Source: Rhododendron vialii (taxonomy: Eukaryota > Streptophyta > Magnoliopsida > Ericales > Ericaceae). From it: a stretch of DNA of 64,000 nt. The stretch covers positions 29,694,001-29,758,000 of the forward strand of contig NC_080568.1 of NCBI RefSeq assembly GCF_030253575.1. The letters are read 5' to 3'. The translations under genes were made by a program, and so were the position numbers. Below are positions 26,700 through 46,973 of this stretch, one piece after another; position 1 is the first letter of the stretch, and the number at the start of each line of letters is the position of its first letter. The notes under the pieces were generated by a model. The model did not search any database. It was not told the DNA's origin and saw only the letters and a list, made by a program, of their open reading frames with translations.

Positions 26700-28625
26700 A
26701 TGGCCGGAAAAACCCACCTCTCTCTCCTCTCCCTCTTCTCGCTCCTCCTCCTCCTCCTCCTCCACGCTCACGCCAAACTCAACCTCGACCGTTCGGATCA
26801 TGACGCTCTCTCGGTCATTCGAAAAGACTTGGGTTTCGACGGCCAGCATGGGGATACTCCAAGTCCATGTCACTCCGCCGGAGTGTTCTGTGAGTGGAGG
26901 ATCTCAAACGATTCTTACTCGCTCCGAGTCACCCGAATCGTCTTGAACTCTCATCGCCTCACCGGGTTTCTCTCTCCGGGGGTAGGACGGCTGTCGGAGC
27001 TCAAAGAGCTTTCCCTCCCAAACAACCACCTCCTTGACCAAGTCCCACACCAAATTGTTGACTGCAAGAAGCTGGAAATCCTCAACCTCCAAAACAACCA
27101 GTTTTCCGGTGAAGTCCCGGCGGAGGTATCATCTCTGGTTCGTCTCCGAATCCTCGACCTCTCTTTTAACAAGTTCTCCGGGAACCTGAATTTCTTGAAG
27201 TATTTTCCCAACCTGGAAAAACTTTCCCTCGAAAACAACATGTTTTCTGGGAAAGTACCGTCATCGGTGCGATCTTTTCGCAATCTTAGGTTCTTTAATG
27301 TTTCCGGAAACAGTTTTCTCGAAGGTCAAATCCTAGAAATAAATAAGGTTGAGTATTCCTCAGCCGAACTGATGGAACAAAACCCAATTCCGAAGCGCTA
27401 TGTATTCGCCGAGAATTCCAATCTTCCCATAGCCGCGAACCCTTCGCCTAGTCCGGAAGAGGGCAGTCATCAAACAGCTGCTGAAGCACCTGGGCCATCA
27501 ACATCAACACCAACACCAACACATCCACACAAGAAAAAGAAGAAGAAAACGGCGACAATGATTCTAGGATTCACTGCCGGCGCTATAGCGGGAGGTGTTT
27601 CCGGGGTGTTGTTTTCGGTGTTTTTCAAACTGATGATGATTTGGGTTCGCGGCGGAGGGAAGGGAAATGGTCCTGCGATCTTCAGTCCGATAATCAAAAA
27701 AGCAGAGTACTTGGATTTCTTGGAGAAAGAAGACGGACTGGCGTCACTCGAACTCATCGGAAGGGGAGGTTGCGGAGAAGTATACAAGGCGGAGCTACCA
27801 GGAAGCAACGGGAGAATGATAGCCATAAAGAAGATAATTCAACCGCCCAAGGATGCGGCAGAGTTGACGGAAGAAGATAGTAAGCTTCTAAACAAGAAGA
27901 TGCGCCAAATCCGGTCAGAGATTCAGACCGTGGGCCAGATTCGGCACCGGAACCTTCTTTCTCTCTTGGCCCACGTGCCACGCCCCGACTGTCACTACCT
28001 CGTGTACGAGTTCATGAAGAACGGAAGTTTACAGGATATTCTGAATCAGGTTTCGCAAGGGACCAGAGAGTTGGATTGGTTAGCACGGCACAAGATCGCG
28101 CTGGGAGTGGCAGCTGGGCTCGAGTACCTCCACATGAACCATAGTCCGCGCATAATCCACAGAGATCTCAAACCGGCGAATGTCCTTCTCGACGATGACA
28201 TGGAAGCTCGGATTGCTGATTTCGGGCTTGCAAAGGCAGTCCCGGATCATGATACGCACGTGACAACTTCCAATGTTGCGGGAACTTTGGGGTACATTGC
28301 TCCGGAGTACCACCAGACAATGAAGTTCACAGACAAGTGTGATATATACAGCTTTGGGGTGTTGCTGGGTGTTTTGGTGATCGGAAGGCTACCATCTGAT
28401 AACTTCTTTCAAAACACAGACGAAATGAGTTTGGTGAAGTGGATGAGAAATATCATGACTTCTGAGGATCCGAATAGAGCAATTGATCCGAAGCTGATAG
28501 GAAATGGACACGAGGAAAAGATGCTCCTAGTGCTAAAGATTGCTTGCTTTTGCACTCTTGACGATCCAAAACAGAGGCCTAATAGCAAGGATGTGAGGTG
28601 CATGTTAGCACAGATCACGCACTAA
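26700..28625 (+). CDS. SOBIR1: SOBIR1/EVERSHED LRR receptor-like kinase
   Basis: Plasma-membrane co-receptor kinase that pairs constitutively with LRR receptor-like proteins and starts immune signalling, with BAK1 as further partner. Single exon, 641 residues, the same length as Arabidopsis SOBIR1. Residues 1-25 are a Leu-rich signal peptide. A Cys-flanked N-cap and about five LRRs (to residue ~215) follow, then a Ser/Pro/Thr linker, HPHKKKKKKT, and a membrane span from ~285 whose GFTAGAIAGGVSG holds the family's GxxxGxxxG dimerisation pattern. Kinase: glycine loop GRGGCGEVYKAE from residue 354, catalytic Lys377, HRD 487-489, DFGLAK, GTLGYIAPEY, C-terminus QRPNSKDVRCMLAQITH. Lys377 and Asp489 have the same numbers as the known catalytic residues of the Arabidopsis protein. 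The kinase looks active. It is the parent of the two SOBIR1-like kinase copies at 35.7 and 43.5 kb. Confidence 0.96.
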   Translation: MAGKTHLSLLSLFSLLLLLLLHAHAKLNLDRSDHDALSVIRKDLGFDGQHGDTPSPCHSAGVFCEWRISNDSYSLRVTRIVLNSHRLTGFLSPGVGRLSELKELSLPNNHLLDQVPHQIVDCKKLEILNLQNNQFSGEVPAEVSSLVRLRILDLSFNKFSGNLNFLKYFPNLEKLSLENNMFSGKVPSSVRSFRNLRFFNVSGNSFLEGQILEINKVEYSSAELMEQNPIPKRYVFAENSNLPIAANPSPSPEEGSHQTAAEAPGPSTSTPTPTHPHKKKKKKTATMILGFTAGAIAGGVSGVLFSVFFKLMMIWVRGGGKGNGPAIFSPIIKKAEYLDFLEKEDGLASLELIGRGGCGEVYKAELPGSNGRMIAIKKIIQPPKDAAELTEEDSKLLNKKMRQIRSEIQTVGQIRHRNLLSLLAHVPRPDCHYLVYEFMKNGSLQDILNQVSQGTRELDWLARHKIALGVAAGLEYLHMNHSPRIIHRDLKPANVLLDDDMEARIADFGLAKAVPDHDTHVTTSNVAGTLGYIAPEYHQTMKFTDKCDIYSFGVLLGVLVIGRLPSDNFFQNTDEMSLVKWMRNIMTSEDPNRAIDPKLIGNGHEEKMLLVLKIACFCTLDDPKQRPNSKDVRCMLAQITH

Positions 28626-29854
28626 GCGTGCCGCCAACATATCACATGTGAATCTATTAAAGAATAATGATGCACGCGATGAATGAGAACTGTTCGAGAA
28701 GAACAGTTTCTCCACTAAGAAACTCTAGCATAGGGTGGCGACCCATACGTAGTTGTAGTAGAAGTTTGTGTCAGTTAAACGCTTGTATCGTTTTGTTATT
28801 CGAATGTAGTTTGGCTCTATTTTCTTCGTGTCGTCTCCTATTGAATCTAAGTGTATACAGCAAGATTTCAGTCAAGTACTACATCTATTCATCAAGCTAT
28901 TTTCGTCACATAATATGCATCCAATTTGCTCGGTGGAAATTACTGACATGATTGTCTCCTATTATGAATATGTTTATTTCATATCATCCTAGGGTTTGAT
29001 GTAAAACACTATCTTCTTCTCAAGAGCACAATGCGTCAGAAGATACTTATCGATAATACATTTATATAGCGACAATAGCTATTATAGCCATCTTAATAAT
29101 GGGGGCACTTCTGATGGGAATGAGGGGAAGTAGTGGAAAAACTTGTTGACCCAAGAGGCATAAAGGAGAGGAAGAATTGGTCTAAAACAACAATTCATGA
29201 TCGATAACCAAAATGATTAGCACTAGCTTCCGGTGGCTAATAAGTAGGCCTTTGATTTTCTACTAAACTAAGTCCCAAGTGAGGAAAATTACCACACTTT
29301 CCATTATCACTATGTCTATCATGAAACCAAGATTCTAGATGAGAAATACAAAGGTTTTCAGGTTGGCCTGGTGAATAGATTAACTGGCACCTCAACAGTA
29401 GGACATAATTCGCTTTATTAGCAAAGGTCTTGGAGGCATCATTCATGACAAATCATGATGTATGCTAGCAGCCTAATACAGCTACGGGAGGTTTAGTGGT
29501 CTATATGAAATATCGAAGCCTAGCACAGAGTTTGTCGAGATTGCAAGAGAACAAATCAACAGCCCATAATAGTGGAATAGCAATGAGAAATCAGAGTCTG
29601 GTTTAAAAGAATTTTCATGGTTATTGTATGTCTCTTTGATTTCCACGACACATTATGCTGCCTTCCCATTTGAAAACACAGTAAGTCGGTAACTACATTA
29701 AAAGGAAGCTTCAAACATGAATCATTATTTAAGAGCCAAAAAAAAAAAAAAAGGAAGCTTCAAACATGAATCATCATTTAAGAGCCAAAAGAAGGAAGAC
29801 GAGTAAGAGATTACAGAGCATAGGAGCTGAAGGATTTTTAAATGGGCAGGCATA

Positions 29855-31386
29855 TCAGAAGTATTACTCAGGGGTCTCAAGAGATGCTTTGTCCCTTTTG
29901 TTCTTTGGAGCTGGAAACACCGGATCATTGGTTGCTACATTGTCATTTTTCATGGGAAGTTTGGTCTCTGATTCTGAGGTGGGTGCACCATAGTTGAAGG
30001 ATATGGCAGTTTGGTGGATGGATAACAAGTTCGGAATTTTGGAAAAACACTGTTGGGAAGCTAGTTTTTTCGCAACAACACGGACCATTTGGCTGACTAG
30101 GAATGATTACATTTTCAACATTGCAACTACTGAGATTTACAAAGTGGTAGATTTGATCTAGACAAGAGTGGCTATAAATCTATTCGGTGGAGGAGTTTAA
30201 GCTATTTCCTGATGGGATTCGAAAGGTAAAACTGTGAGATTGTACTGGAAGCTTGTAACTTTCTTTTTCCTTGATTGAGCTGTCTGTTGCTGGTCATTTG
30301 AGTCTGTAAGTCTGGTGGGTTGGTGTGTGGGTATTTGGTCTGTCTTTGGATCGCTGCTTGTTTGCTGATATACCTAACAGTCAAGTCTTTGGTATATTTC
30401 TGCCATGACTAAAGACGGCTCTGTCTTGTAACCACAAAAAAGAAGATGGCTCTGTCTGGTTCTCCTCTGCTATGATCATGTTGGGATACACCCAAGTGGC
30501 ATGGGTGTGTGTTGTAGGGGATAAAACCCCTTGGTCCCCTTTCCCTTGTATTGACTGCCTTTGGCAGTGAGTGTGTGTGTGCTGAGACAGAGAGGGTGAG
30601 GGAGAGTTGAGCGGTGAGGGCTCCTCCTTCGGGAGGAGTGGTGCTCCTCGGAGACGCCAGGAGAGACTGTCGGAGAGCACCGGAGTGAGGGAGAGAGAGA
30701 GGAGTGGGGAAGCCGGATTGTGGCTATCCCGGTGAGGTTTTTCATACTTGTATATGTGATTTATACATAGTGGAGTTTGCCTCGGATATCTCTCGTTTGT
30801 GCTTGGTTTATTTTCGTGCTTGTGCTTGGAGGTGTGAATCGGGGTCGGGGTCTCGACCCAACAGATCATTCATACTGGAATTGCCTTGCTTCTGCTGATT
30901 CTATTTGTCATGGATTTGGTCTGGTCATGGTATCTTACCTCCCATGCCCCTAGCTCTGCTTTTTGGAGTTGCATCTTACATACATGAGGATTTGGAGATT
31001 AATATTATGGCTCCAAATGGGTGATTTCTGCTGTTGCTGATGCTGCCTTGTGTATACTCTTTTGCGTTGACGCCATACTAATGCTGATGATGTAAATGCT
31101 CTCAACTGGAAACGTGCTCAACCTCTGATTCTCTCTGTTACTAGTTGCTATTGGTTTTGGATCTTGCTGATTCTTTGGACTCTTGATGCTGTTACTGGAT
31201 GGGAGTTGTTCATAAGAGACAATGGAAGTGTCCATTCATCTCCTTGGGCTTTTATTCAATCTTTGGTTGGATTTTTTTTTTTTCTGGCCTTCTCTATGGT
31301 CCAAGTCTTCTTTGTATCTAGGGTTGGTCGCCTCGATATACCCTTTGTCGAGTTCTAATAAAATCTTTTGCCAATAAAAAAAAAAA
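29855..31386 (+). mobile_element. L1-type LINE 3' remnant (zf-RVT end and tail), copy in X1
   Basis: Near 29890-29990 one frame reads CPFCSLELETPDHWLLHCHF, then WEVW, the zinc-binding zf-RVT pattern (Cys-x2-Cys ... His-x3-Cys) found at the C-terminus of plant L1 reverse transcriptases. A second piece of the same protein type (TIWLTRNDYIFN) follows near 30090. The element ends TCTAATAAAATCTTTTGCCA and an A-tail at 31374-31386. The 5' part is missing, the frames are broken, and a solo LTR sits inside. Confidence 0.75.
30479..30863. mobile_element. Solo LTR inserted in the LINE (X1 copy)
   Basis: 385 bases bounded by TGTTGGG and CCCAACA, with a perfect 5-bp target duplication GATCA (30474-30478, 30864-30868). 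No internal region remains, so it is a solo LTR; short LTR length suggests Copia but family is not certain. The same insertion occurs at 38609-38995, so it predates the tandem duplication. Confidence 0.9.
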
Positions 31387-31984
31387 CCAAAATTTACCAA
31401 CTTAGTACACATATTGTGTACCTAACCCACAGAGGACGACCGAAAACTCTTTTTTAGAGAGCTCCTCCTTCTCTCTTCTTTCTCTCTACAACTTCAGCAC
31501 CTAGGGTTTCTCTTGGGAGGAGGCGGCGCCTGTTGGAAAAATGACTTTTGTACACAACAATTTTTGGGTGACTTTGAGCCAAAAATTAAGTGGGACCTGG
31601 ACACCTTGAGAGGTGGGTCCAAGTGGATTTATAATCTATTATGTTAGGGTATTAATCCACAAAAGAAATGAACAAATCCACTGCGGATTGAATGAGAAAT
31701 TGTCAATCAAAGTTGGACATTTTCAATGTGAAGTTGTGATAGAAGTTGTCTATCCCACATTGCTTGGAATAGTGATGTTTGATGAGAATATAATTCCCTA
31801 GCTTTGGGGTATCCAAATTTTTCGAAAGAGAGCGTGCACTCTCTATGGGCCTCGACCCATTTACCACACGGGCTTAACTGGGCTCAGGACAGCGGGGCTG
31901 TGGGCTGGGCCTGGCCTTGGACCTCCTATTTTTTTTGGGGAAAATTTGAACTTGGGCTTACTTGGACTTGGGCCTTAGTAATTT

Positions 31985-32173
31985 TGAGTTTTCAGGTATT
32001 GTGGTTATTCTGTGGCTTAGGTTGCTGCCCAGAATGCAGTGTGGGATGCCTTCTTGGCTTCTTTCTCCCCCTTTGGTTGTATCTCCCTTTGTGGGGATGC
32101 TTGCCTTCATGTTGTACTGTTTCCTATAGCTGTCAATGGATCTATCCTACCGTTTTGACCAAAATAAAAAAAA
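31985..32173 (+). mobile_element. Second LINE 3' tail (X1 copy)
   Basis: Reads like an L1-type 3' end: TTGGTTGTATCTCCCTTTGT, CTTGCCTTCATGTTGTACTG, TAGCTGTCAATGGATCTATC, CTACCGTTTTGACCAAAAT and an A-tail. After the tail, fragments of CTATAGCTGTCAATGGATCT reappear at 32228 and, shortened, at 32285. The 32228 piece is absent from the X2 copy. Confidence 0.65.
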
Positions 32174-32299
32174 CCTTAGATGTTCTTTTTTGTTTTGTTC
32201 ATGCTAGAAGGTTTAAAAACTAAACCTATAGCTGTCAATGGATCTATCCTACCGTTTTGTTCTCTTTTGTTTTGTACTGTTTCCTATAGCTGTCAGTGT

Positions 32300-32892: not shown

Positions 32893-35464
32893 ATGTTTCC
32901 TTATCTACTCTCAATTGCACTCCCTCTTTACTTCTTCCTCCATCAAAGTACTTTACACTAGCCATCAACTCCCCTGGCCTTTATTCCCAACAGCTTGATC
33001 ACGTTGTCGTCAACTGCGGCTCCTCCGGGGACTCAACTGCAGAAGATACCCGGAAATGGACCGGAGATACCGGTTCCAATTACATCACTTCATTACATGG
33101 TTCAAAGGGCAAATTGATCAGCTCAAAAGCCACTGACCAACCCCTTCCCTACGATCCAATCCCTTACAGGACCGCCCGGCTCTCCCGTTGGCCATTCACC
33201 TATACATTCCGCGTCACTCCAGGTCAGAAACTTATACGTCTTCATTTCTATCCGGCTTTGTACCTGGGTGGTTTCAAAAGGTCCAAGGCCTTTTTTACTG
33301 TGAAGGCTGGTCGTTATACCCTTCTTAGCAACTTTAGTGCTGCCCTTACTGTTGATGCATTAGGCTTAACCTCTCTTGTTAAAGAGTATTATTTGGACGT
33401 GGACGAAGATCAACCGTTAATCATAACGTTCTCCCCGTCACGAATTGGTAATTCTGAAGAGGTATATGCTTTTGTCAATGGGATTGAAATAATCTCAATG
33501 CCAGCTGCACTTTATCATACTCGAGAGGGTAATCCAGCGGCACAGATTGTTGGGAAGAGCGACCGGTTTACCCTAGATAAAAGCATTGCTCTGGAGAAGG
33601 TACACCGGTTAAACGTTGGCGGAAGCTCCATTTCGCCCATAGAAGATAGGGGTATGTTTAGGGATTGGAATGAGGACTCAAATTATCTGTTAGAAAAATC
33701 ATGTGTCAAGCCAGTTACTACCACAATTCGAATCAAATACACGAGCGTACCACCGTACACTGCTCCTCAGAAAGTGTATCAAACATCTTGGTCACTGATT
33801 CCAGGCAAGCATGCGAACAAGACCGAATCAAATTTCACGTGGAGATTACCTGTGGATTTGGGATTTCGGTACCTGCTTAGGTTGCATTTCTGTGAGCTTG
33901 AATATGAGATAAAAGAGAGTGGAAGGATGGAGTTTAGTATCTTTGTTAATGAACACGTTGTTGAGGCCAAAGTTGACCTTATCCATTGGAGCGGCGGAAG
34001 TGGGGTGGCTGTGTTTAAGGACTATGTGGTGATTATGGATGGAGAAAGGATGGAGGGCAAGCGTGACTTGCTCATAGCGCTGCGCCCTCACAATCATGAA
34101 TGGACGGAACCAATTGATGCAACTGTAAAGGGGTTAGAGGTATTCAAGTTGAGTAACCCCGACAAAAATCTTGCTGGGGTGAACCCGGTGTCGCTTGAAC
34201 GTGCTTCGACATCTCCAAAGCCCAAGAAGTTAGTCTTTGCTTCTGGAGGAAATGCCATCGCAACAGGTGTAGTAATTGTACTCACTGTGTTGAATGTCAT
34301 TGTTTACCAATTGCGTAGCTTAGGTGAAAATAGTGCGGAGAGAAATCTCTCTTCGTCGACATCGGAGGGGTTGTGTCGCCGTTTCTCACTTGCTGAGCTC
34401 ATGTCAGTGACCAATAACTTCGATGATGAGTTTGTCATTGGACGTGGTGGATTTGGTAAGGTCTACAAAGCGCTTATTGATGATGACGCAACAATGGTTG
34501 CCTTAAAGCGGTGTAATTTGAAGTCTCAAGGGGCAAAAGAGTTTTGGACAGAAATCGAGATGCTTTCCAAGCATCGACACACGCATCTCGTAAGTCTTTT
34601 AGGCTATTGCGATGAACGCAATGAGATGATCCTTGTTTATGAGTTTATGGAGCATGGTACCCTTGCTGATCATCTCTACAATACAAAAACCAAGGGTAAT
34701 GGTATGGTTGGCTATATGTCATGGGAGCAAAGGCTCAACATTTGTGTAGGTGCTGCTCGTGGATTGGATTACCTCCATACAGGTATTCAGCACGGTATAA
34801 TACATCGAGATGTGAAGACCACAAACATTCTATTGGACAAGTACTGGATAGCTAAGATTTCAGATTTTGGGTTGTGTAAAGTGGGCTCCACAAGCCATTC
34901 CCACACGTACGTTAGCACAGATGTAAAAGGCACAAGGGGGTATCTGGATCCTGAGTATTACATGACCCGTAGGCTAACTAAGAAATCAGATGTGTATGCC
35001 TTTGGTGTCGTGATGTTGGAAATGCTTTGTGGGAGACCAGCAGTTGATATGCGGGTCGATGAGGAGCAACATAGTCTTGCCCTATGGGCTAAACAGTGCA
35101 TTAAAGAGAACAAACTCGATCAACTTACTGACCCCAGTTTGAGGGACCAAATCTCGGCACATTGCCTGAAGGTATTTGCTGAAGTTGCTAATAATTGCTT
35201 AGATAGTCGTCCAAAGGGACGGCCTACAATGGCAGATGTGGTGGTGAGACTTGAGTACGCATTGGCTTCAGAGAGGGCTGTGAACGAGCAGTTTGGTGAG
35301 AACACCAAAGGCGGGAATAGGTCAAAGGGAAACGTAAGCAAGGTTTTTCAGAAGGCTATTGAATTTCTAGCTAAAGGTGCTGACATCAAGTGGAAAAAAA
35401 GAAAGGTAGATGATTTCATGAGAAAGCAAACCTTACGCCTTTTCTCAGTGTTTGTTAACGCATA
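32893..35464 (+). pseudogene. Malectin-like receptor kinase (CrRLK1L type), first copy, damaged
   Basis: Paralogue of the intact gene at 40959-44456 and nearly identical to it. The ATG at 32893 opens the same signal peptide, but one A is missing (CTTTACACTAG here, CTTTAACACTAG in the other copy). The frame therefore stops at 32959-32961; downstream the original frame is open again through the malectin-like region, membrane span and kinase 1. Kinase 1 keeps GRGGFGKVYKA, VALKRC, HRDVKTTNILL and DFGLC. At the 3' end the frame enters a Stowaway MITE at 35465 and ends at 35630 in foreign sequence. A possible intron 35406-35741 (AAG-GTAGAT to ATGCAG) would rejoin it in frame to the kinase at 35742. 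Without a rescued start the product would lack a signal peptide, so I call it a probable pseudogene. Confidence 0.75.
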
Positions 35465-35700
35465 CTCCCTTCATCCGGATTTAATAGTCTTTTTTTGGAG
35501 TTCATGTCATTTTTCAATCGATTATATCTTCCGATTTATAATGTTTTATGTGATTTCGAAAATATTGTATTATAGAACTAATCGAGATCTATCAAACAAG
35601 ATCCATATTCGATATGAAATTCATTATTAATTCAAAGATATAACCCGTTTTTTAGCCGGTTAGAATAGAACTAGGAACAATTAAATCCGGATGGAGGGAG
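35465..35700. mobile_element. Stowaway MITE at the receptor/SOBIR1-kinase junction
   Basis: 236 bases with termini CTCCCTTCATCCGGATTTAA and, inverted, CTCCCTCCATCCGGATTTAA; TA on both sides (35463-35464, 35701-35702). The inner sequence (ATTATAGAACTAATCGAGAT) matches the elements at 52459 and 62990, so these form one subfamily. It supplies the last codons of the open frame of the upstream receptor copy. Confidence 0.93.
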
Positions 35701-35741
35701 TATTTTTTTGCGAATGTTACGCTCTTTTTATCTCTATGCAG

Positions 35742-35847
35742 GCAAATTCACAATCGGAAGGGATACTTAACCGAAGAGACACTGAAGACAGGATAAGGCA
35801 TCACCAACTCCCTGAAGATTTGAGACTAAGTGTTCAGCGCTCGAATA
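35742..35847 (+). pseudogene. Captured exon fragment of a cyclic-nucleotide-gated channel (CNGC)
   Basis: In the frame of the following kinase, this segment reads ILNRRDTEDRIRHHQLPEDL and continues RLSVQRS. It matches the C-linker of plant CNGC channels (typically KRRDTEQWMRHRQLP, then LRERVRRF). It is preceded by a T-rich tract and ATGCAG, as at a real exon start, so intron end plus exon start appear to have been captured together. It is absent at the equivalent position of the second fusion (about 43497). About 106 bases; function in the channel is lost. Confidence 0.6.
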
Positions 35848-36758
35848 TCATAAAAGCCGAGAACTTGGCTTTCTTGGAGAAAGAAGAAGGACTGGAGTCG
35901 CTCGAACTCATCGGAAGAGGAGTTAGCGGAGAAGTATACAAGGCAGAGCTTCCAGGAAGCAACGGGAAAATAATAGCCATAAAGAAGATAACGGTAGTAT
36001 GTTATTCAGACCGTAGGCCAAACGATTGGAAAATGCAGCGAATCCGATCAGAGATTCAGATCATGGGCCAAATTTGGCACCGGAACCTTATTCCTCTCTT
36101 GGCCCACGTGCCATGCCCCAACGGCCACTGCCTCGTGTACGAGTTCATGAAGAACGGAAGTTTGGAGGATATTCTGAATCAGGTTTCGCAAGGGACCAGA
36201 GAGTTGGATTGGTTAGCACGGCACAAGATCGCGCAGGGAGTGGCAGCCGGGCTCGAGTACCTCCACATGTACATTAAGCCGCGCATAATCCACAGAGGTC
36301 TCAACCCAGCAAAAGTCCTTCTCGACGATGACATGGAAGCTCGGATTGCTGATTTCGGGCTCGCAAAGGCAGTCCCGGATCACGATACTCACGTGACGAC
36401 TTCCAATGTTGCGGGAACTTTGGGGTACATTGCTCCGGAGTACCACCAGACAATGAAGTTCACAGACAAGTGTGATATATACAGCTTTGGGGTGTTGCTG
36501 GGTGTTTTGGTGATCAGAAGGCTACCATCTGATAACTTCTTTCAAGACACAGCCGAAAGGAGTTTGGTGAAGTGGATGACAAATGTCATGACTTCTGAGA
36601 ATCCGAATAGAGCAATTGATCCGAAGCTGATGGGAAATGGACATGAGGAAAAGATGCTCCTAGTGCTAAAGATTGCTTGCTTTTGCACTCTTGACGATCC
36701 AAAACAGAGGCCTAATAGCAAGGATGTGAGGTGCATGTTAGCACAGATCACGCACTAA
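35742..36758 (+). pseudogene. SOBIR1-like kinase domain copy, predicted pseudokinase
   Basis: 339 codons in frame to the stop, the first 35 CNGC-derived, the rest the SOBIR1 kinase. GRGVSGEVYKAE replaces GRGGCGEVYKAE; the ATP-binding Lys (IIAIKK) is present. The segment after it is changed and shortened (TVVCYSDRRPNDWK in place of the alpha-C approach). The catalytic loop reads HRGLNPAKV instead of HRDLKPANV, so the catalytic Asp is lost (Gly codon at 36297-36299). DFGLAK and the last ~145 residues are almost identical to SOBIR1, unlike the 5' half, which is clearly diverged. It could be the second half of a spliced fusion with the gene upstream, or a remnant. No ATG with a good promoter of its own is evident. 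Confidence 0.7.
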
Positions 36759-37984
36759 GCGTGCCGCCAACATATCATATGTGAATCTATTAAAGAATAA
36801 TGATGCATGCGATGAATGAGAACTGTTCGAGAAGAACAGTTTCTCCACTAAGAAACTCTAGCATAGGGTGGCGACCCATACGTAGTTGTAGTAGAAGTTT
36901 GTGTCAGTTAAACGCTTGTATCGTTTTGTTATTCGAATGTAGTTTGGCTCTATTTTCTTCATGTCGTCTCCTATTGAATCTAAGTGTATACAGCAAGATT
37001 TCAGTCAAGTACTACATCTATTCATCAAGCTATTTTCGTCACATAATATGCATCCAATTTGCTCGGTGGAAATTACTGACATGATTGTCTCCTATTATGA
37101 ATTTGCTTATTTCATATCATCCTAAGGTTTGATGTAAAACAGTATCTTCTTCTCAAGAGCACAATGCGTCAGAAGATACTTATCAATAATACATTTATAT
37201 AGCGACAATAGCTATTATAGCCATCTTAATAATGGGGGCACTTCTGATGGGAATGAGGGGAAGTAGTGGAAAGACTTGTTGACCCAAGCAGCATAAAGGA
37301 GAGGAAGAATTGGTCTAAAACAACAATTCATGATCGATAACCAAAATGATTAGCACTAGCTTCCGGTGGCTAATAAGTAGGCCTTTGATTTTCTACCAAA
37401 CTAAGTCCCAAGTGAGGAAAATTACCACACTTTCCACTATCACAATATCTATCACGAAACCAAGATTCTAGATGAGAAATACAAAGGTTTTCAGGTTGGC
37501 CTGGTGAATAGATTAACTGGCACCTCAACAGTAGGACATAATTCGCTTTATTAACAAAGGTCATGGAGGCATCATTCATGACAAATCACGATGTATGCTA
37601 GCAGCCTAATACAGCTACGGGAGGTTTAGTGGTCTATATGAAATATCGAAGCCTCGCACAGAGTTTGTCGAGATTGCAAGAGAACAAATCAACAGCCCAT
37701 AATAGTGGAATAGCAATGAGAAATCAGTGTCTGGTTTAAAAGAATTTTCATGGTTATTGTATGTCTCTTTGATTTCCATGACACATTATGCTGCCTTCCC
37801 ATTTGAAAACACAGTAAGTCGGTAACTACATTAAAAGGAAGCTTCAAACATGAATCATTATTTAAGAGCCCAAAAAAAAAAAGGAAGTTTCAAACATGAA
37901 TCATCATTTAAGAGCCAAAAGAAGGAAGACGAGTAAGAGATTACAGAGCATAGGAGCTTAAGGATTTTTAAATGGGCATGCATA

Positions 37985-39510
37985 TCAGAAGTATTATCCA
38001 GGGGTCTCAAGAGATGTTTTGCCCCTTTTGTTCTTTGGAGCTGGAAACACCGGATCATTGGTTGCTACATTGTCATTTTTCATGGGAAGTTTGGTCTCTG
38101 ATTCTGAGGTGGGTGCACCATAGTTGAAGGATATGGCAGTTTGGTGGATGGATAACAAGTTCGGAAATTTGGAAAAACACTGTTGGGAAGCTAGTTTTTC
38201 CGCAACAACATGGACCATTTGGCTGACTAGGAATGATTACATTTTCAACAATGCAACTACTGAGATTTACAAAGTGGTAGATTTGATCTAGACAAGAGTG
38301 GCTATAAATCTATTCGGTGGAGGAGTTTAAGCTATTTCCTGATGGGATTCGAAAGGTAAAACTGTGAGATTGTAGTGGAAGCTTGTAACTTTCTTTTTCC
38401 TTGATTGAGCTGTCTGTTGCTGGCCATTTGAGTCTGTAAGTCTGGTGGGTTGGTGTGTGGGTATTTGGTCTGTCTTTGGATCGCTGCTTGTTTGCTGATA
38501 TACCTAACAGTCAAGTCTTTGGTATATTTCTGCCATGACTAAAGACGGCTCTGTCTTGTAACCACAAAAAAGAAGATGGCTCTGTCTGGTTCTCCTCTGC
38601 TATGATCATGTTGGGATACACCCAAGTGGTGTGGGTGTGTGTTGTAGGGGATAAAACCCCTTGGTCCCCTTTCCCTTGTATTGACTGCCTTTGGCAGTGA
38701 GTGTGTGTGTGCTGAGACAGAGAGGGTGAGGGAGAGTTGAGCGGTGAGGGCTCCTCCTTCGGGAGGAGTGGTGCTCCTCGGAGACGCCCGGAGAGACTGT
38801 CGGAGAGCACCGGAGTGAGGGAGAGAGAGAGAGGAGTGGGGAAGCCGGATTGTGGCTATTCCGGTGAGATTTTTCATACTTGTATATGTGATTTATACAT
38901 AGTGGAGTTTGCCTCGGATATCTCTCGTTTGTGCTTGGTTTATTTTCGTGCTTGTGCTTGGAGGTGTGAATCGGGGTCGGGGTCTCAACCCAACAGATCA
39001 TTCATACTGGAATTACCTTGCTTCTGCTGATTCTATTTGTCATGGATTTGGTCTGGTCATGGTATCTTACCTGCCATGCCCCTAGCTCTGCTTTTTGGTG
39101 TTGCATCTCACATACATGAGGATTTGGAGATTAATATTATGGCTCCAAATGGGTGATTTCTACTGTTGCTGATGCTGCCTTGTGTATACTCTTTTGCGTT
39201 GACGCCATACTAATGCTGATGATGTAAATGCTCTCAACCGAAAACGTGCTCAACCTCTGATTCTCTCTGTTACTAGCTGCTATTGGTTTTGGATCTTGCT
39301 GATTCTTTGGACTCTTGATGCTGTTACTGGGTGGGAGTTGTTCGTAAGAGACAATGGAAGTGTCCATTCATCTCCTTGGGCTTTTATTCAATCTTTGGTT
39401 GGATGTTTTTTTTTTTTTTTCTATGGTTCAAGTCTTCCTTGTATCTAGAGTTGATCGCCTCGATGTACCCTTTGTCGAGTTTTAATAAAATCTTTTGCCG
39501 ATAAAAAAAA
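37985..39510 (+). mobile_element. L1-type LINE 3' remnant, copy in X2
   Basis: Same element as in X1, duplicated with the unit: zf-RVT-type sequence near 38020-38120, tail TTTAATAAAATCTTTTGCCG and A-run ending at 39510. Interrupted by the same solo LTR. Confidence 0.75.
38609..38995. mobile_element. Solo LTR inserted in the LINE (X2 copy)
   Basis: 387 bases, TGTTGGG to CCCAACA, same GATCA target duplication (38604-38608, 38996-39000) and same position in the LINE as the X1 copy. It therefore arrived by segmental duplication, not by a second insertion. Confidence 0.9.
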
Positions 39511-40958
39511 GATATATATATATTTACCAACTTAGTACACATATTGTGTACCTAACCCACAGAGGACGACCAAAAACTCTTTTTTCGAGAGCTCCTCCTT
39601 CTCTCTACAACTTCAGCACCTAGGGATTCTCTTGGGAGGAAGCGGCGCTTGTTGGAAAAATGAGTTTTGTACACAATAATTTTTGGGTGACTTTGAGCCA
39701 AAATTAAGTGGGACTTGGACACCTTGAGAGGTGGGTCCAAGTGGATTTATAATCTCTTATGTTAGAGTATTAATCCACAAAAGAAATGAACAAAATCCAC
39801 TGCGGATTGAATGAGAAATTGTCAATCAAAGTTGGACATTTTCAATGTGAAGTTGTGATAGAAGTTGTCTATCCCACATTACTTGGAATAGTGATGTTTG
39901 ATGAGAATATAATTCCCTAGCTTTGGGGCACCCAAATTTTTCGAAAGAGAGCGTGCACGCTCTATGGGCCTCGACCCATTTACCACACGGGCTTAACTGG
40001 GCTCAGAACAGCGGTGCTGTGGGCTGGGCCTGGCCTTGGACCTCCTATTTTTTTGGGTGAAAATTTGAACTTGGGCTTACTTGGACTTGGGCCTTAGTAA
40101 TTTTGAGTTTTCAGGTATTGTGGCTATTCTGTGGCTTAGGTTGCTGCCCAGAATGCAGTGTGGGTGTGGGATGCCTTCTTGGCTTCTTTCTCCCCCTTTG
40201 GTTGTATCTCCCTTTGTGGGGATGCTTGCCTTCATGTTGTACTGTTTCCTATAGCTGTCAATGGATCTATCCTACCGTTTTGACCAAAATAAAAAAAAAC
40301 CTTAGATGTTCTTTTTTGTTTTGTTCATGCTAGAAGGTTTAAAAACTAAACCTATAGCTGTCAGTGTGACTTTTGATGTGGTTAGTGCTCTCAACGAGTT
40401 TTAAAAACTAAAATGTTACTAAAATGAACCCGGGAAAAGCCCACTGCACTATACATTCATTTATTGGCACGAGTTAACAAATTCAAAAGGGAAATATCTT
40501 ATACTTAAGAAACCATATCAATTGATACCCAATAACATGATTTTTTGATGTGGTTAGTGCTCTCAACGAGTTTTAAAAGTTAAACTGTTACCGAAATGAA
40601 CTCGGGAAGAGCCCATGGATGGACAACGGAGGATCCGATTCCATGAAGAAAATTTTTTTTTTTTGAAAGAAAAAACAGCGACGAGATACTTCAACGAAAT
40701 GTCTTATACAGTACAAAACAAGGAACAAGAGGTCTGGCTTGGGTGCCTTTTAACATGTTCCACGAAATGTCTGGAGCAGAACTGTTGTCCTTGACTTAGT
40801 GAATTGACTGACCAAGTCTTCGTCTTCCTTACCCACCCTCGAAATAGTTCAACTTTTTTCATCAGCAATCTCCTCCTCTCTCCTTCACTGTGTTCATTCC
40901 CAAACTCTCTCAATAGTTCCAGTTCACATCACACGCACAAACACCAAAAAAAAAACAA

Positions 40959-43900
40959 ATGTTTCCTTATCTACTCTCAATTGCACTCCCTCTTTACTTC
41001 TTCCTCCATCAAAGTACTTTAACACTAGCCATCAACTCCCCTGGCCTTTATTCCCAACAGCTTGATCCCATTGCCGTCAACTGCGGCTCCTCCGGCGACT
41101 CAACTGCAGAAGATACCCGGAAATGGACCGGAGATATCGGTTCCAATTACATCACTTCATTACATGGTTCAAAGGGCAAATTGATCAGCTCAAAAGCGAC
41201 TGACCAACCCCTTCCCTACGATCCAATCCCTTACAGGACCGCCCGGCTCTCCCGTTGGCCATTCACCTATACATTCCGTGTCACTCCAGGTCAGAAACTT
41301 ATACGTCTTCATTTCTATCCGGCTTTGTACCTGGGTGGTTTCAAAAGGTCCAAGGCCTTTTTTACTGTGAAGGCTGGTCGTTATACCCTTCTTAGCAACT
41401 TTAGTGCTGCCCTTACTGTTGATGCGTTAGGCTTAACCTCTCTTGTTAAAGAGTATTATTTGGACATGGACGAAGATCAACCGTTAATCATAACGTTCTC
41501 CCCGTCACGAATTTGTAATTCTGATGAGGTATATGCTTTTGTCAATGGGATTGAAATAATCTCAATGCCAGCTGCACTTTATCATACTCGAGAGGGTAAT
41601 CCAGCGGCACAGATTGTTGGGAAGAGCGACCCGTTTACCCTAGATAAGAGCATTGCTCTGGAGAAGGTACACCGGTTAAACGTTGGCGGAAGCTCCATTT
41701 CGCCCATAGAAGATAGGGGTATGTTTAGGGATTGGAATGAGGACTCAAATTATCTGTTAGAAAAATCATGTGTCAAGCCAGTTACTACCACAATTCGAAT
41801 CAAATACACGAGCGTACCACCGTACACTGCTCCTCAGAAAGTGTATCAAACATCTTGGTCACTGATTCCAGGCAAGCATGCGAACAAGACCGAATCAAAT
41901 TTCACGTGGAGATTACCTGTGGATTTGGGATTTCGGTACCTGCTTAGGTTGCATTTCTGTGAGCTTGAATATGAGATAAAAGAGAGTGGAAGGATGGAGT
42001 TTAGTATCTTTGTTAATGAACAGGTTGTTGAGGCCAAAGGTGACCTTATCCATTGGAGCGGCGGAAATGGGGTGGCTGTGTTTAAGGACTATGTGGTGAT
42101 TATGGATGGAGAAAGGATGGAGGGCAAGCGTGACTTGCGCATAGCGCTGCGCCCTCACAATCATGAATGGACGGAACCAATGGATGCAACTGTAAAGGGG
42201 TTAGAGGTATTCAAGTTGAGCAACCCCGACAAAAATCTTGCTGGGGTGAACCCGGTGTCGCTTGAACGTGCTTCGACATCTCCAAAGCCCAAGAAGCTAG
42301 TCTTTGCTTCCGGAGGAAATGCCATTGCAACAGGTGTAGTAATTGTACTCACTGTGTTGAATGTCATTGTTTACCAATTGCGTAGCTTAGGTGAAAATAG
42401 TGCGGAGAGAAATCTCTCTTCGTCGACATCGGAGGGGTTGTGTCGCCGTTTCTCACTTGCTGAGCTCATGTCAGTGACCAATAACTTCGATGATGAATTT
42501 GTCATTGGACGTGGTGGATTTGGTAAGGTCTACAAAGCGCTTATTGATGATGACGCAACAACGGTTGCCTTAAAGCGGTGTAATTTGAAGTCTCAAGGGG
42601 CAAAAGAGTTTTGGACAGAAATCGAGATGCTTTCCAAGCTTCGACACATGCATCTCGTTAGTCTTTTAGGCTATTGCGATGAACACAATGAGATGATCCT
42701 TGTTTATGAGTTTATGGAGCATGGTACACTTGCTGATCATCTTTACAATACAAAAACCAAGGGTAATGTTATGGTTGGCTATACGTCATGGGAGCAAAGG
42801 CTCAACATTTGTGTAGGTGCTGCTCGTGGATTGGATTACCTCCATACAGGTATTCAGCACGGTATAATACATCGAGATGTAAAGACCACAAACATTCTAT
42901 TGGACAAGGACTGGATAGCTAAGATTTCAGATTTTGGATTGTGTAAAGTTGGCTCCACAAGCCATTCCCACACATACGTTAGCACAGATGTAAAAGGCAC
43001 ATGGGGGTATCTGGATCCCGAGTATTACATGACCCGTAGGCTAACTAAGAAAACAGATGTGTATGCCTTTGGTGTTGTGATGTTGGAAATGCTTTGTGGG
43101 AGACCAGCAGTTGATATGCGGGTCGATGAGGAGCAACGTAGTCTTGTCCTATGGGCTAAACAGTGCATCATAGAGAACAAACTTGATCAACTTACTGACC
43201 CCAGTTTGAGGAACCAAATCTCGGCACATTGCCTGAAGGTGTTTGCTGAAGTTGCTAATGATTGCTTAGATAGTCGTCCAAAGAGACGGCCTACAATGGC
43301 AGATGTGGTGGTGAGACTTGAGTACGCATTGGCTTCAGAGAGGGCTGTGAACGAGCTGTTTGGTGAGAACACCAAAAACCGGAATAGGTCTAAGGGAAAC
43401 GTAAGCAAGGTGTTTCAGAAGGCTATTGAATTTCTAGCTAAAGGTGCTGACATCAAGTGGAAAAAAATAAAGGTAGATGATTTCATGGGAAAGAAAATTG
43501 ATCCAGCGATCTTCAGTTCGATAATCAAAAAAACAGAGAACTTGGATTTCTTGAAGAAAAAAGACGGACTGGCGTCACTCGAACTCATTGGAAGAGGAGG
43601 TTGCGGAGAAGTATACAAGGCAGAGCTACCAGGAAGCAACGGGAAAATGATAGCCATAAAGAAGATAATTCAACCGCCCATGGATGCGGCAGAGTTGACG
43701 GAAGAAGATAGTAAGCTTCTAAACAACAAGATGCGCCAAATCCGGTCAGAGATTCAGACCGTGGGCCAGATTCGGCACCGGAACCTTCTCTCTCTCTTGG
43801 CCCACGTGCCGCGCCCTGACTGCCACTATCTCGTGTATGAGTTCATGAAGAACGGAAGTTTACAGGATATCCTTAATCAGGTTTCGCAAGGGACCAGAGA

Positions 43901-44456
43901 GTTGGATTGGTTGGCACGGCACAAGATCGCGCTGGGAGTGGCAGCTGGGCTCGAGTACCTCCACATGAACCATAGTCCGCGCATAATCCACAGAGATCTC
44001 AAACCGGCGAATGTCCTTCTCGACGATGACATGGAAGCTCGGATTGCTGATTTCGGGCTCGCAAAGGTGATGCCGGATCAAGATACGCCCGTGACGAATT
44101 CCAATGTTGCCGGAACTTTGGGGTACATTGCTCCGGAGTACCGCCTGACAATGAAGTTCACAGACAAGTGTGATATATACAGCTTTGGGGTGGTGCTGGG
44201 TACTTTGGTGATCGGAAGGCTACCATCTGATAACTTCTTTCAAGACACAGTCGAAATGAGTTTGGTGAAGTGGATGAGAAATGTCATGACTTCTGAGGAT
44301 CCGAACAGAGCAATTCATCCGAAGCTGATGGGAAATGGACAAGAGGAAGAGATGCTACTAATGCTAAAGATTGCTTGCTATTGCACTCATGACGATCCAA
44401 AAGAGAGGCCTAATAGCAAGGATGTGAGGTGCATGTTAGCTCAGATCACGTACTAA
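40959..44456 (+). CDS. Chimeric tandem-kinase receptor: malectin-like CrRLK1L kinase fused to SOBIR1 kinase
   Basis: One uninterrupted frame of 1165 codons. Residues 1-25 are a hydrophobic signal peptide. A tandem malectin-like ectodomain follows (about 32-420; starts DPIAVNCGSSGDS, as in FERONIA-type receptors). The predicted membrane span is about 455-474. Kinase 1 (about 505-785) has GRGGFG 517, Lys539, HRD 638-640, DFG and GTWGYLDPEY, all catalytic residues kept. After a basic tail (KWKKIKVDDFMGKK), residue ~848 begins PAIFSSIIKK, the SOBIR1 juxtamembrane start, and a complete SOBIR1 kinase (GRGGCG 878, Lys901, HRD 1011-1013, DFG, C-terminus ..MLAQITY). CrRLK1L kinases sense wall pectin or RALF peptides; SOBIR1 starts immune signalling. 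The joined roles are inference. A GTAGAT donor-like site before the junction is kept, so splicing around it is not excluded. The ATG is preceded by an A-rich, in-context leader. Confidence 0.85.
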   Translation: MFPYLLSIALPLYFFLHQSTLTLAINSPGLYSQQLDPIAVNCGSSGDSTAEDTRKWTGDIGSNYITSLHGSKGKLISSKATDQPLPYDPIPYRTARLSRWPFTYTFRVTPGQKLIRLHFYPALYLGGFKRSKAFFTVKAGRYTLLSNFSAALTVDALGLTSLVKEYYLDMDEDQPLIITFSPSRICNSDEVYAFVNGIEIISMPAALYHTREGNPAAQIVGKSDPFTLDKSIALEKVHRLNVGGSSISPIEDRGMFRDWNEDSNYLLEKSCVKPVTTTIRIKYTSVPPYTAPQKVYQTSWSLIPGKHANKTESNFTWRLPVDLGFRYLLRLHFCELEYEIKESGRMEFSIFVNEQVVEAKGDLIHWSGGNGVAVFKDYVVIMDGERMEGKRDLRIALRPHNHEWTEPMDATVKGLEVFKLSNPDKNLAGVNPVSLERASTSPKPKKLVFASGGNAIATGVVIVLTVLNVIVYQLRSLGENSAERNLSSSTSEGLCRRFSLAELMSVTNNFDDEFVIGRGGFGKVYKALIDDDATTVALKRCNLKSQGAKEFWTEIEMLSKLRHMHLVSLLGYCDEHNEMILVYEFMEHGTLADHLYNTKTKGNVMVGYTSWEQRLNICVGAARGLDYLHTGIQHGIIHRDVKTTNILLDKDWIAKISDFGLCKVGSTSHSHTYVSTDVKGTWGYLDPEYYMTRRLTKKTDVYAFGVVMLEMLCGRPAVDMRVDEEQRSLVLWAKQCIIENKLDQLTDPSLRNQISAHCLKVFAEVANDCLDSRPKRRPTMADVVVRLEYALASERAVNELFGENTKNRNRSKGNVSKVFQKAIEFLAKGADIKWKKIKVDDFMGKKIDPAIFSSIIKKTENLDFLKKKDGLASLELIGRGGCGEVYKAELPGSNGKMIAIKKIIQPPMDAAELTEEDSKLLNNKMRQIRSEIQTVGQIRHRNLLSLLAHVPRPDCHYLVYEFMKNGSLQDILNQVSQGTRELDWLARHKIALGVAAGLEYLHMNHSPRIIHRDLKPANVLLDDDMEARIADFGLAKVMPDQDTPVTNSNVAGTLGYIAPEYRLTMKFTDKCDIYSFGVVLGTLVIGRLPSDNFFQDTVEMSLVKWMRNVMTSEDPNRAIHPKLMGNGQEEEMLLMLKIACYCTHDDPKERPNSKDVRCMLAQITY

Positions 44457-44498
44457 GCGTGCCGCCAACGTATCACATTTGAATGTATTAAAGAATAA

Positions 44499-45379
44499 GG
44501 GCAAATTTTCGTAGTCGTCCTTCTAGTTCTACGGTTGTCTCAATTTTGTTCCTCTAGTTTCAATTGTCTCAATTTCGTTCCTGTAGTTTGTTTTACGTTC
44601 CGAATCGGTAAAATCGTTAGCACCATTAATGAAACTAACGGAAAAATATGATTAAAAAATTAAGTGCTCCAATTTTCAATTCGGTTGAATCGATGCGTCT
44701 TATTTTTTTTATCATTTTATCATAGATTGTCGTAATGAATTTTTGGCTCTAAAACCTTTCAGCGAGCACCCGAAGACTCCTTATTTAGTTTCAGAGCTCT
44801 CTTAGGGTACTCATTGAAAGGCCTTAGAGCCAAAAATCCATTATGACCATTTAAGATAAAATAATCGAAAAAATAAGATCTTCGCACTGATTCAAATGGA
44901 TTGAAAATTGGAACACTTAATGTTTTACACCGTTTATATATTAAAAAATATAGTTAAAAAGTTAAGTATTCCAATTTTCAATCCGTTTGAACCAGTGTGA
45001 AGATCTTATTTTTCTGATCATTTTATCTTAGATGGTCATAATGGATTTTTAGCTCTAAGGCGAGCACCTTAAGAGAGCCCTGAAACTAAATAAGGAGTCT
45101 TCGGGTGCTCATTGAAAGGCCTTAGAACCAAAAATTCATTACGACCATCGAGGATAAAATGATCAAAAAAATAAGATTTTCGCACCAGTTCAACTGGATT
45201 GAAAATTGAAGCACTTAATTTTTTAATCATATTTTTCCGTTAGTTTCATTAACGGTGTTAATGATTTTACCAATTTGGAACGTAAAACAAACTACGAGGA
45301 CAAAATTGAGACAATTGAAACTATAGGGACAAAATTGAGACAGCCGTAAAACTAGAGAGACGACTATGAAAATTTGCCC
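44499..45379. mobile_element. Foldback MULE-type element with 9-bp target duplication
   Basis: 881 bases, terminal sequence GGGCAAATTTTCGTAGTCGT at the left and GGGCAAATTTTCATAGTCGT inverted at the right. Flanked by AAAGAATAA at 44490-44498 and 45380-45388. X1 and X2 carry the empty site with a single AAAGAATAA. Inverted-repeat similarity extends through nearly the whole element, with secondary inverted copies inside. Nine-base duplication and long inverted repeats fit a non-autonomous Mutator-like element. No transposase frame. Confidence 0.92.
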
Positions 45380-45781
45380 AAAGAATAATGATGCATGTGA
45401 TGAATGAGAACTGTTCGAGAAGAACAGTTTCTCCTCCAAGGAAACTCTAGCATAGGGTGGCGACCCATACGTGGTTGTAGTAGAAGTTTATGTCAGTTAA
45501 ACGCATTTACCGTTTTGTTAATTCGAATGTCATTTGGATATATTTCTTCGTGTCTCCTATTGAATCTAAGTGTATTCAGCAAGATTTCAGTCAAATACTA
45601 CATCTATTCATCAAGCTACTTTCGTTACATAATATGCATCCAATTTGCTTGGTGGAAATTGCTGACATGATTGTCTCCTATTATGAATTTGCTTATTTCA
45701 TATCATTCTAGGGTTTGATGTAAAACAGTATCTTCTATAGAAAGCACAATGTGTCAGAAGATACTTATCAATAATACATAT

Positions 45782-46138
45782 ACAGTCAGGTTCCGGTGAG
45801 GGATCCCTTACTTTTTTAAAATGCGGGACTTTCCTTCCCGATTGAATTTCGATGATCCGAGCCGCTCAAAGTGATCAGAACGTGATTTTAAGGGTCCCCG
45901 CGAGAAATCAGCAAAAAAAAAGACCGGGAAGGGCTTCATCCGAGCAGTTTTCATTGAACGGTTCAAAAAAAACTGCTCGGATGAAGCCCTTCCCGGTCAT
46001 TTTTTTTGCTGATTTCTCGCGGGGACCCTTAAAATCACGTTCTGCACACATTGAACGGTTCGGATTTTCAAAATTTGATCGGGAAATGAAAGTCCCTCAT
46101 TTTAAAAAAATGAGGGATCCCTCACTTGATAATTTGTG
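45782..46138. mobile_element. Palindromic foldback element
   Basis: 357 bases that fold almost end to end about a centre near 45966; the arms contain ACTGCTCGGATGAAGCCCTT and its reverse complement, and GCGGGGACCCTTAAAATCAC likewise. The flanks share AATACATAT (45773-45781 and 46139-46147), a 9-bp duplication. X1 and X2 have the empty site (AATACATTT). Non-coding. Confidence 0.88.

Positions 46139-46141: not shown

Positions 46142-46201
<60 letters not shown>
46142..46201. repeat. (TA)n microsatellite
   Basis: About 60 bases of almost pure TA at the right edge of the foldback insertion. The X1 and X2 copies have only a short TATATAG here, so the expansion is specific to X3. Confidence 0.95.
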
Positions 46202-46202
<1 letters not shown>

Positions 46203-46973
46203 GCGACAACAGCTATTATAGCCATCTTAATAATGGGGGCACTTCTGATGGGAATTGTTGTCTGAAACAACAATTCATGATCGATAAACAAAAAGATTAG
46301 CACTAGCTTCTAGTGGCTAATAAGTAGGTCTTTGATTTTCTACTATACTAAGTCCAAGTGAGGAAAATTACCACACTTTCCGCTATCACAATGTCTATCA
46401 TGAAACCAAGACTCTAGATGAGAAATACGAAGTTTTCAGGTTGGCCTGGTGAATAGATTAACTGGCACCTCAACAGTAGGAGATAATTTGCTTTATTAGC
46501 AAAGGTCTTGGAGGCATCATTCATGACAAATCACGATGTATGCTAGCAGCCTAATACAGCTACGGGAGGTTTAGTGGTCTATATGAAATATCGAAGCCTA
46601 GCACAGAGTTTGTCGAGATTGCAAGGGAACAAATCAACAGCCCATAGGGCCATAATAGTGGAATAGCAACGAGAAACCAAGTGTCTAAATTTTCATGGTT
46701 AAGTTTTTTTTTTTTTTTTTTATCCGCTCATGGTTAAGTTGTCTCTTTGATTTCCAGTTTTCCACAACACATTATGCTGCCTTCCCATTTGAAAACACAG
46801 TAAGTTCGGTAGCTAGTAGCTACATGAAAAGGAAGCTCCAAACATGAATCATTATTTAAGAGCAAAAAAAAGGAAGCTTCAAACATGAATTATCATTTAA
46901 GAGCCAAAAGAAGGAAGACGAGTAAGAGATTACAGAACATAGGAGCTGAAGGATTTTTAAATGGGCAGGCATG

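Follow-up and report, generated by a model that had tools for sequence, protein, structure and literature searches.

How does a wall-type receptor come to end in the kinase of SOBIR1, and is such a protein a one-off or part of a larger family? The question is raised by a 64,000-nucleotide stretch of the Rhododendron vialii genome (contig NC_080568.1, positions 29,694,001 to 29,758,000 of the forward strand; below, the window), in which an open frame here called fusion B encodes a malectin-like receptor with two kinases, the second of the type found in the immune co-receptor SOBIR1. Judged from its sequence and that of its relatives, fusion B is a real and unusual fusion, to be understood as the result of an exchange in a two-kinase malectin receptor family and not as a one-off architecture. 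That it has the anatomy of this family, with a SOBIR1 kinase exchanged into the second position, we consider very likely; this suggests that the inner signalling part is exchangeable in this group of receptors.

Fusion B, its SOBIR1 donor and a second join

The initial annotation of the window had described a malectin-like ectodomain, a membrane span, a CrRLK1L kinase and a SOBIR1 kinase in a frame of 1165 codons, and translation, Pfam and PDB comparisons agree with that description. The frame is single and uninterrupted, and its parts are as follows:

40959..44456 (+): fusion B, whole open frame, 1165 amino acids (translation, Pfam)
41019..42308 (+): malectin-like ectodomain, residues 21-450 (Pfam, PDB match)
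42315..42380 (+): membrane span, about residues 453-474 (hydropathy)
42444..43349 (+): kinase 1, CrRLK1L/FERONIA type, with K539 and D640 present
43350..43487 (+): linker segment, common to the relatives L021-L027 in the same genome (alignment)
43487..43502 (+): join of the receptor linker to the SOBIR1 juxtamembrane region (alignments)
43503..44456 (+): kinase 2, SOBIR1 type, with K901 and D1013

Pfam assigned Malectin_like to residues 40-403, together with Malectin and two kinase stretches. The best PDB match of both the ectodomain and kinase 1 was FERONIA (3e-85 and 3e-109, respectively), while that of kinase 2 was SOBIR1 (4e-161), the next family being BRI1 at 3e-59. Since the sequence matches the solved SOBIR1 kinase, the identity of kinase 2 is settled, and the domain identities behind the proposed joining of a wall-type receptor to a SOBIR1 kinase hold. 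In the alignment, fusion B turns SOBIR1-like at residues 843-849, in keeping with the in-frame join that had been placed at residue ~848, and Lys539, Asp640, Lys901 and Asp1013 are exactly where the initial annotation had put them. Both kinases retain the glycine loop and the Lys, HRD, DFG and PE motifs and are predicted to be active. Matched by distance from the catalytic Asp, Thr1053 and Tyr1000 of fusion B correspond to Thr522 and Tyr469 of NbSOBIR1; according to the available part of PMC11109355, the former is needed for kinase activity and the latter for the hypersensitive response and MAPK output.

Fusion B joins the SOBIR1 sequence only past the SOBIR1 membrane span, so that the leucine-rich repeat (LRR) ectodomain and the span of SOBIR1 itself are absent, and self-comparison shows that kinase 2 finishes with the 3' end native to SOBIR1. 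That end would suit a locus in which alternative ends or internal promoters yield separate products, namely a plain receptor, a soluble SOBIR1 kinase or both. The frame is continuous, with no stop between the two kinases, and we regard separate products as quite improbable.

Self-comparison of the window revealed a tandem array. The segment 27693-35430, comprising a SOBIR1 kinase, its 3' flank and a receptor in two adjoining matches, recurs at 35847-43497, and the SOBIR1 kinase with part of its flank recurs a third time from 43487. The array holds two receptor-SOBIR1 joins that differ from each other: fusion B and a broken unit, copy A. The initial annotation had left out both copy A and the intact SOBIR1 gene that we take as the donor.

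26700..28625 (+): intact SOBIR1 gene, donor; single frame of 641 amino acids with LRR, membrane span and kinase; catalytic Asp is residue 489
28626..32240: SOBIR1 3' flank; recurs at 36759-40366 and partly at 44457-44498, 45380-45782 and 46190-46972
32893..36758 (+): copy A, broken receptor-SOBIR1 unit (self-comparison)
32893..35447 (+): copy A receptor, with malectin-like part, kinase 1 and linker; 1-base frameshift (deletion) near 32952, within the signal peptide
35465..35700: miniature inverted-repeat transposable element (MITE) inside copy A, 236 bp, with TA duplication; the matching site of L021 lacks it
35742..35840 (+): copy A CNGC C-linker exon fragment, common to the C10 relative L021; a weak match by itself
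35841..36758 (+): copy A SOBIR1 kinase, with the catalytic Asp gone (HRD to HRG) and the N-lobe damaged
40446..40958 (+): 5' flank of fusion B, putative promoter; matches L021 over 40446-40655 and from 40712
44499..45379: fold-back element, 881 bp, lying in the fusion B 3' flank, with a 9-bp duplication at 44490-44498 and 45380-45388

Kinase 2 of fusion B is 90% identical to the kinase of the neighbouring SOBIR1 gene. We searched the genome (532.6 Mb, 13 contigs) in six frames with kinase 2 of fusion B; this search and the one with kinase 1 described below score best candidates, and the locus counts are lower bounds. At least 117 matches were obtained. Among the matches listed, three loci were SOBIR1-like, all of them in the window (100, 90 and 79% identity), and the next best match was at 41%.

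The two joins are built differently. In copy A, the MITE, which is Stowaway-like, and the CNGC-like exon piece stand between the receptor and the SOBIR1 kinase; fusion B lacks the CNGC piece found in copy A and L021 and enters SOBIR1 ~30 bases deeper. For this reason we rejected the simple reading of A and B as one single junction. An origin as a SOBIR1 retrocopy was unsupported, since SOBIR1 3' flank came along with the copies, kilobases of it in A and some 1.2 kb, in pieces, in B. We also considered a tandem of haplotypes made by the assembler, which we think unlikely: the array lies on one contig and holds three distinct SOBIR1 kinases with separate junctions.

The 3' flank diverges from the SOBIR1 flank by 8.9% in B and 1.8% in A, and the B join therefore looks older than the A join. 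In a windowed comparison, the receptor coding parts of A and B are 96-99% alike. Such similarity in the face of the divergent flanks suggests a later duplication or homogenisation. Another fold-back element is present in the fusion B 3' flank at 45796-46125.

Two-kinase malectin relatives and a proposed history of the exchange

The genome search with kinase 1 gave at least 113 matches, from which 14 stretches (L021-L034) were taken for study. The malectin ectodomain was matched in 11 of them (L021-L029, L032 and L033; in L027 the second part only). No ectodomain match was found in the remaining stretches compared, L030 (C10:5.91 Mb), L031 (C2:9.93 Mb) and L034 (C10:5.89 Mb), which are dual-kinase genes of CrRLK1L type.

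What stands behind kinase 1 varies among the 11 receptors. Downstream, eight have all or part of an RLCK-VII-type second kinase (L022-L027, L032 and L033), two have a CrRLK1L-type second kinase (L028 and L029), and one (L021) has a CNGC C-linker exon at the second-kinase position. In five of the eight (L022, L023, L024, L025 and L027), the frame stays open from kinase 1 across the linker into the first part of kinase 2; the open frames of the L026, L032 and L033 receptors do not include the RLCK-VII piece. The first part of kinase 2 of L023 matches PBL2 (2e-20) and BIK1 (8e-18), and when the exons of L024 were chained, the best match was BIK1 at 8e-114. Catalytic motifs are kept in all four chained second kinases (L023, L024, L025 and L027), and most exon edges are splice-like. 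A stop lies inside the last exon of L027, and kinase 2 of L022, the last exons of which fall outside the stretch studied, no longer has the Arg of the YRD motif. The linker segment of fusion B, about 47 residues long, recurs in L021-L027 at 57-80% identity and was found in none of L028, L029, L032 and L033; the relatives hold extra residues on both sides of it.

The arrangement is also common in the wider neighbourhood of these genes. Over C10:5.64-5.87 Mb, an RLCK-VII first exon lies within 2 kb downstream of kinase 1, on the same strand, in 13 of the 17 kinase-1 loci listed (a count that excludes four short matches, which are tails or second pieces of counted loci). The four loci without it are L021 and three with internal stops. 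The exon is also found behind L026 (C10:18.64 Mb) and L027 (C5:5.76 Mb).

The initial annotation had known of no described receptor with the architecture of fusion B. Fusion B is evidently not the only double-kinase malectin receptor in this genome, so the claim does not stand for the architecture at large; SOBIR1 as the second kinase, by contrast, was found in none of the relatives studied outside the window. Because close relatives on C10 and C5 already carry two kinases, we read fusion B as the exchange of a second domain in an existing family.

A tree of 16 kinase-1 sequences, rooted at the midpoint and with some weak inner branches (0.517, 0.822), places A and B together (0.759) with L021 as sister to both (1.000). 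The group of A, B and L021 is nested among copies with an RLCK-VII second kinase, and these copies are in turn separated from those of CrRLK1L type and those lacking an ectodomain (1.000). L021 (C10:5819500-5828500), the closest relative of the window receptors, has a premature stop in its ectodomain. Copy A and L021 also have the CNGC join in common, over 141 bases at 84%, and it ends a few bases from the start of SOBIR1. L021 identifies the piece clearly as CNGC (CNGC15b, 6e-17), copy A by itself weakly (0.22); a genome search with the L021 exon gave at least 25 matches, copy A among them (66% over 32 residues).

These relationships are consistent with the following history. The ancestral family would have carried an RLCK-VII kinase 2. 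The sub-lineage of L021 would have lost this BIK1/PBL-type kinase, its place being taken by the CNGC piece. One L021-type copy may then have moved from C10 to C12, ~4 kb downstream of SOBIR1, together with ~500 bases upstream of it. Both joins could then stem from duplications whose breakpoints fell in the linker region of the receptor and in the juxtamembrane region of SOBIR1.

Some of the relatives deserve attention in their own right. L022-L025 and L027 (C10:5.78-5.86 Mb and C5:5.76 Mb) combine the receptor and a multi-exon BIK1/PBL-type RLCK in one gene, and are possibly more notable than the fusion in the window, linking the same receptor to a BIK1-like kinase in the same genome. L028 (C8:7.34 Mb, 1284 amino acids) and L029 (C10:5.98 Mb, 1349 amino acids) are kinase-pseudokinase malectin receptors in single open frames; their second kinases lack the HRD and DFG motifs, and that of L028 matches FERONIA best.

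On C5, RLCK-VII first exons at 5711898-5712119 and 5740502-5740729 are 64 and 61% identical to kinase 2 of L023. They lie ~46 and ~18 kb upstream of kinase 1 of L027, with no adjacent kinase-1 locus among the matches listed, and may represent the donor neighbourhood of the RLCK-VII second kinase, in parallel to SOBIR1 in the window.

Constraint and the possible working of fusion B

What might fusion B do? With moderate confidence, in a judgement that blends anatomy with function and overlaps with the alternatives below, we read it as a membrane tandem-kinase receptor with a built-in SOBIR1 output. The protein would sit in the plasma membrane, where the tethered SOBIR1 kinase would be engaged once the ectodomain has bound a ligand and kinase 1 has become active. 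The SOBIR1 kinase would in turn phosphorylate BAK1 and RLCK-VII proteins, dispensing with a receptor-like protein partner. Phosphorylation of both by SOBIR1 is reported for N. benthamiana in the available part of PMC11109355. Since RLCK-VII, the usual kinase in this slot, belongs to the class of SOBIR1 substrates, the exchange would replace the built-in partner by one that acts a step earlier in the same path. That fusion B is made as a protein and works is a more tentative proposition, and somewhat doubtful on the present comparisons.

The initial annotation had proposed an analysis of the ratio of nonsynonymous to synonymous rates (dN/dS) over both kinases, and its outcome was divided. Nonsynonymous (N) and synonymous (S) changes were assigned to branches using copy A, with unassignable codons excluded; copy A resembles SOBIR1 more in its 3' part, which may mislead the assignment. 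Several results weigh against a working receptor. On the fusion B branch, 39 N and 22 S changes make up the 61 assigned codon changes, with an omega of about 0.7 that is near neutral (P = 0.13); taken separately, neither the receptor part (22 N/11 S, P = 0.35) nor kinase 2 (17 N/11 S, P = 0.14) is distinguishable from neutral. When the 27 kinase-2 differences between fusion B and the donor that could be compared with Arabidopsis SOBIR1 were scored, the donor agreed in 15, B in 4 and neither in 8. Fusion B thus departs in 15 of the 27 from a residue common to the donor and Arabidopsis, and three of these departures (1037, 1044 and 1047) are in the activation segment, where B and the donor differ at 1037, 1038, 1041, 1044 (Pro) and 1047 (Asn replacing one of five Thr/Ser). 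The receptor part of copy A is constrained even though the copy is broken (8 N/11 S, omega about 0.3, P = 0.008). Finally, the 881-bp hairpin, which is absent from the SOBIR1 and copy A units, starts 42 bases past the fusion B stop and is nearly fully self-complementary (-569 kcal/mol, z -44).

The near-neutral changes and the inserted hairpin also fit a duplication accident on its way to decay, in which the open joined frame would have no selected function and be weakly expressed or silenced by the hairpin. The state of the nearest copies points the same way, with the sister copy A frameshifted and its second kinase dead, and the L021 receptor prematurely stopped. We take decay to be a serious possibility. 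Against it, the 3498 bp of fusion B have remained free of stops and frameshifts despite about 61 assigned codon changes, and all checked catalytic and regulatory residues are intact in both kinases. Under neutrality, the chance of no stop at 61 changes is P about 0.18; when indels are included at 0.11 to 0.03 per substitution, the chance of an open frame falls to about 0.0002 to 0.03. Given the indel ratio in the SOBIR1 3' flank comparison (4 gap events per 35 differences), a neutral frame would rarely remain open. Furthermore, the first 150 codons of kinase 2 are constrained, with 2 N/7 S and N below the neutral expectation (P = 0.003). The pairwise dN/dS between the donor and fusion B kinases is 0.40, a value tempered by the donor branch, which is presumably constrained. 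The kinase 2 branch of copy A has 38 N/11 S (omega about 1.4); given its constrained receptor part, copy A may have ceased to function only a short time ago, or the base missing from its signal peptide may reflect an error in the assembly.

The remainder of kinase 2 of fusion B, which starts just ahead of HRD, has 15 N/4 S, and its two parts differ in N/S (Fisher P = 0.010). The concentration of changes in the second part would fit an integrated decoy, in which the slot holds copies of immune kinases targeted by effectors (BIK1/PBL type and SOBIR1) and the receptor senses the attack, as in the integrated domains of NLRs. Effectors attack BIK1/PBL kinases, and immune-signalling kinase types fill the slot in several family members. 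However, N in the second part does not exceed the neutral expectation (P = 0.33), leaving positive selection on kinase 2 unsupported, and the contrast between the two parts may reflect the closer likeness of copy A to SOBIR1 in its 3' part. Both kinases of fusion B moreover look active by sequence, whereas decoys need not be. We consider a decoy unlikely. A broader idea, which we offer as speculative but somewhat less improbable, is that modules of immune signalling (BIK1/PBL kinase, SOBIR1 kinase, CNGC piece) enter the slot behind kinase 1 time and again, as built-in partners or baits; the slot would then parallel, at the cell surface, the integrated domains of NLRs.

If fusion B, read as a membrane receptor with a SOBIR1 output, is made and active, it would be a natural single-chain path from a wall or peptide sensor to a SOBIR1 kinase, otherwise built from separate proteins. 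One could then ask whether fusing a receptor to its downstream kinase bypasses co-receptors, and whether plant receptors, like NLRs, acquire integrated immune kinases. Were fusion B functionless, the locus would still preserve stages in the origin of a tandem-kinase receptor: a receptor copy beside a kinase gene, then a tandem duplication joining both.

Comparison with known systems

Fusion B has the ectodomain, membrane span and kinase 1 of FERONIA and other CrRLK1L receptors, and adds a second kinase. FERONIA has a single kinase. Compared to SOBIR1, fusion B has the whole kinase and the 3' end, with the malectin receptor and kinase 1 replacing the LRR ectodomain and span.

The initial annotation had likened fusion B to the tandem kinase proteins RPG1 and WTK1. 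The likeness holds in that RPG1, WTK1/Yr15 and WTK7-TM/Pm36 have two kinases per polypeptide, partly of different family origin, as does fusion B. It fails elsewhere: the available part of PMC6170490 describes the tandem kinase family without extracellular or membrane parts and with a kinase-pseudokinase layout, whereas fusion B has an ectodomain, a membrane span and two kinases with full motifs. WTK7-TM/Pm36 has a C-terminal membrane span, according to the text available of PMC11006675. In wheat, TraesCS5D02G357700.1 is a receptor-like kinase with two kinase domains, the types of which are not stated in the accessible portion of PMC11968617.

A literature search for tandem kinases combined with malectin and SOBIR1 gave no match. 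None of the available parts of PMC6170490, PMC8866362, PMC11968617, PMC11006675, PMC11109355, PMC12830362 and PMC12525662 describes a malectin receptor whose second kinase is of SOBIR1 or BIK1 type, the literature search not having been aimed at fusions of RLCK-VII kinases and receptors.

The CrRLK1L dual kinases of sunflower and lettuce, known from the sunflower OrDeb2 interval, have a CrRLK1L-type kinase followed by a second kinase, as in fusion B. In the excerpted text of PMC8866362, they lack an ectodomain and a membrane span and have one active-site signature per protein; L030, L031 and L034 resemble them. Closest to fusion B are its own relatives L022-L025, L027, L028 and L029, which have the same malectin-like ectodomain (in L027 its second part) and kinase 1 with a second kinase behind, and of which L022-L025 and L027 also have its linker segment. 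The difference lies in the second kinase, which is of BIK1/PBL type in several exons in L022-L025 and L027, of a decayed CrRLK1L type in L028 and L029, and SOBIR1 in fusion B.

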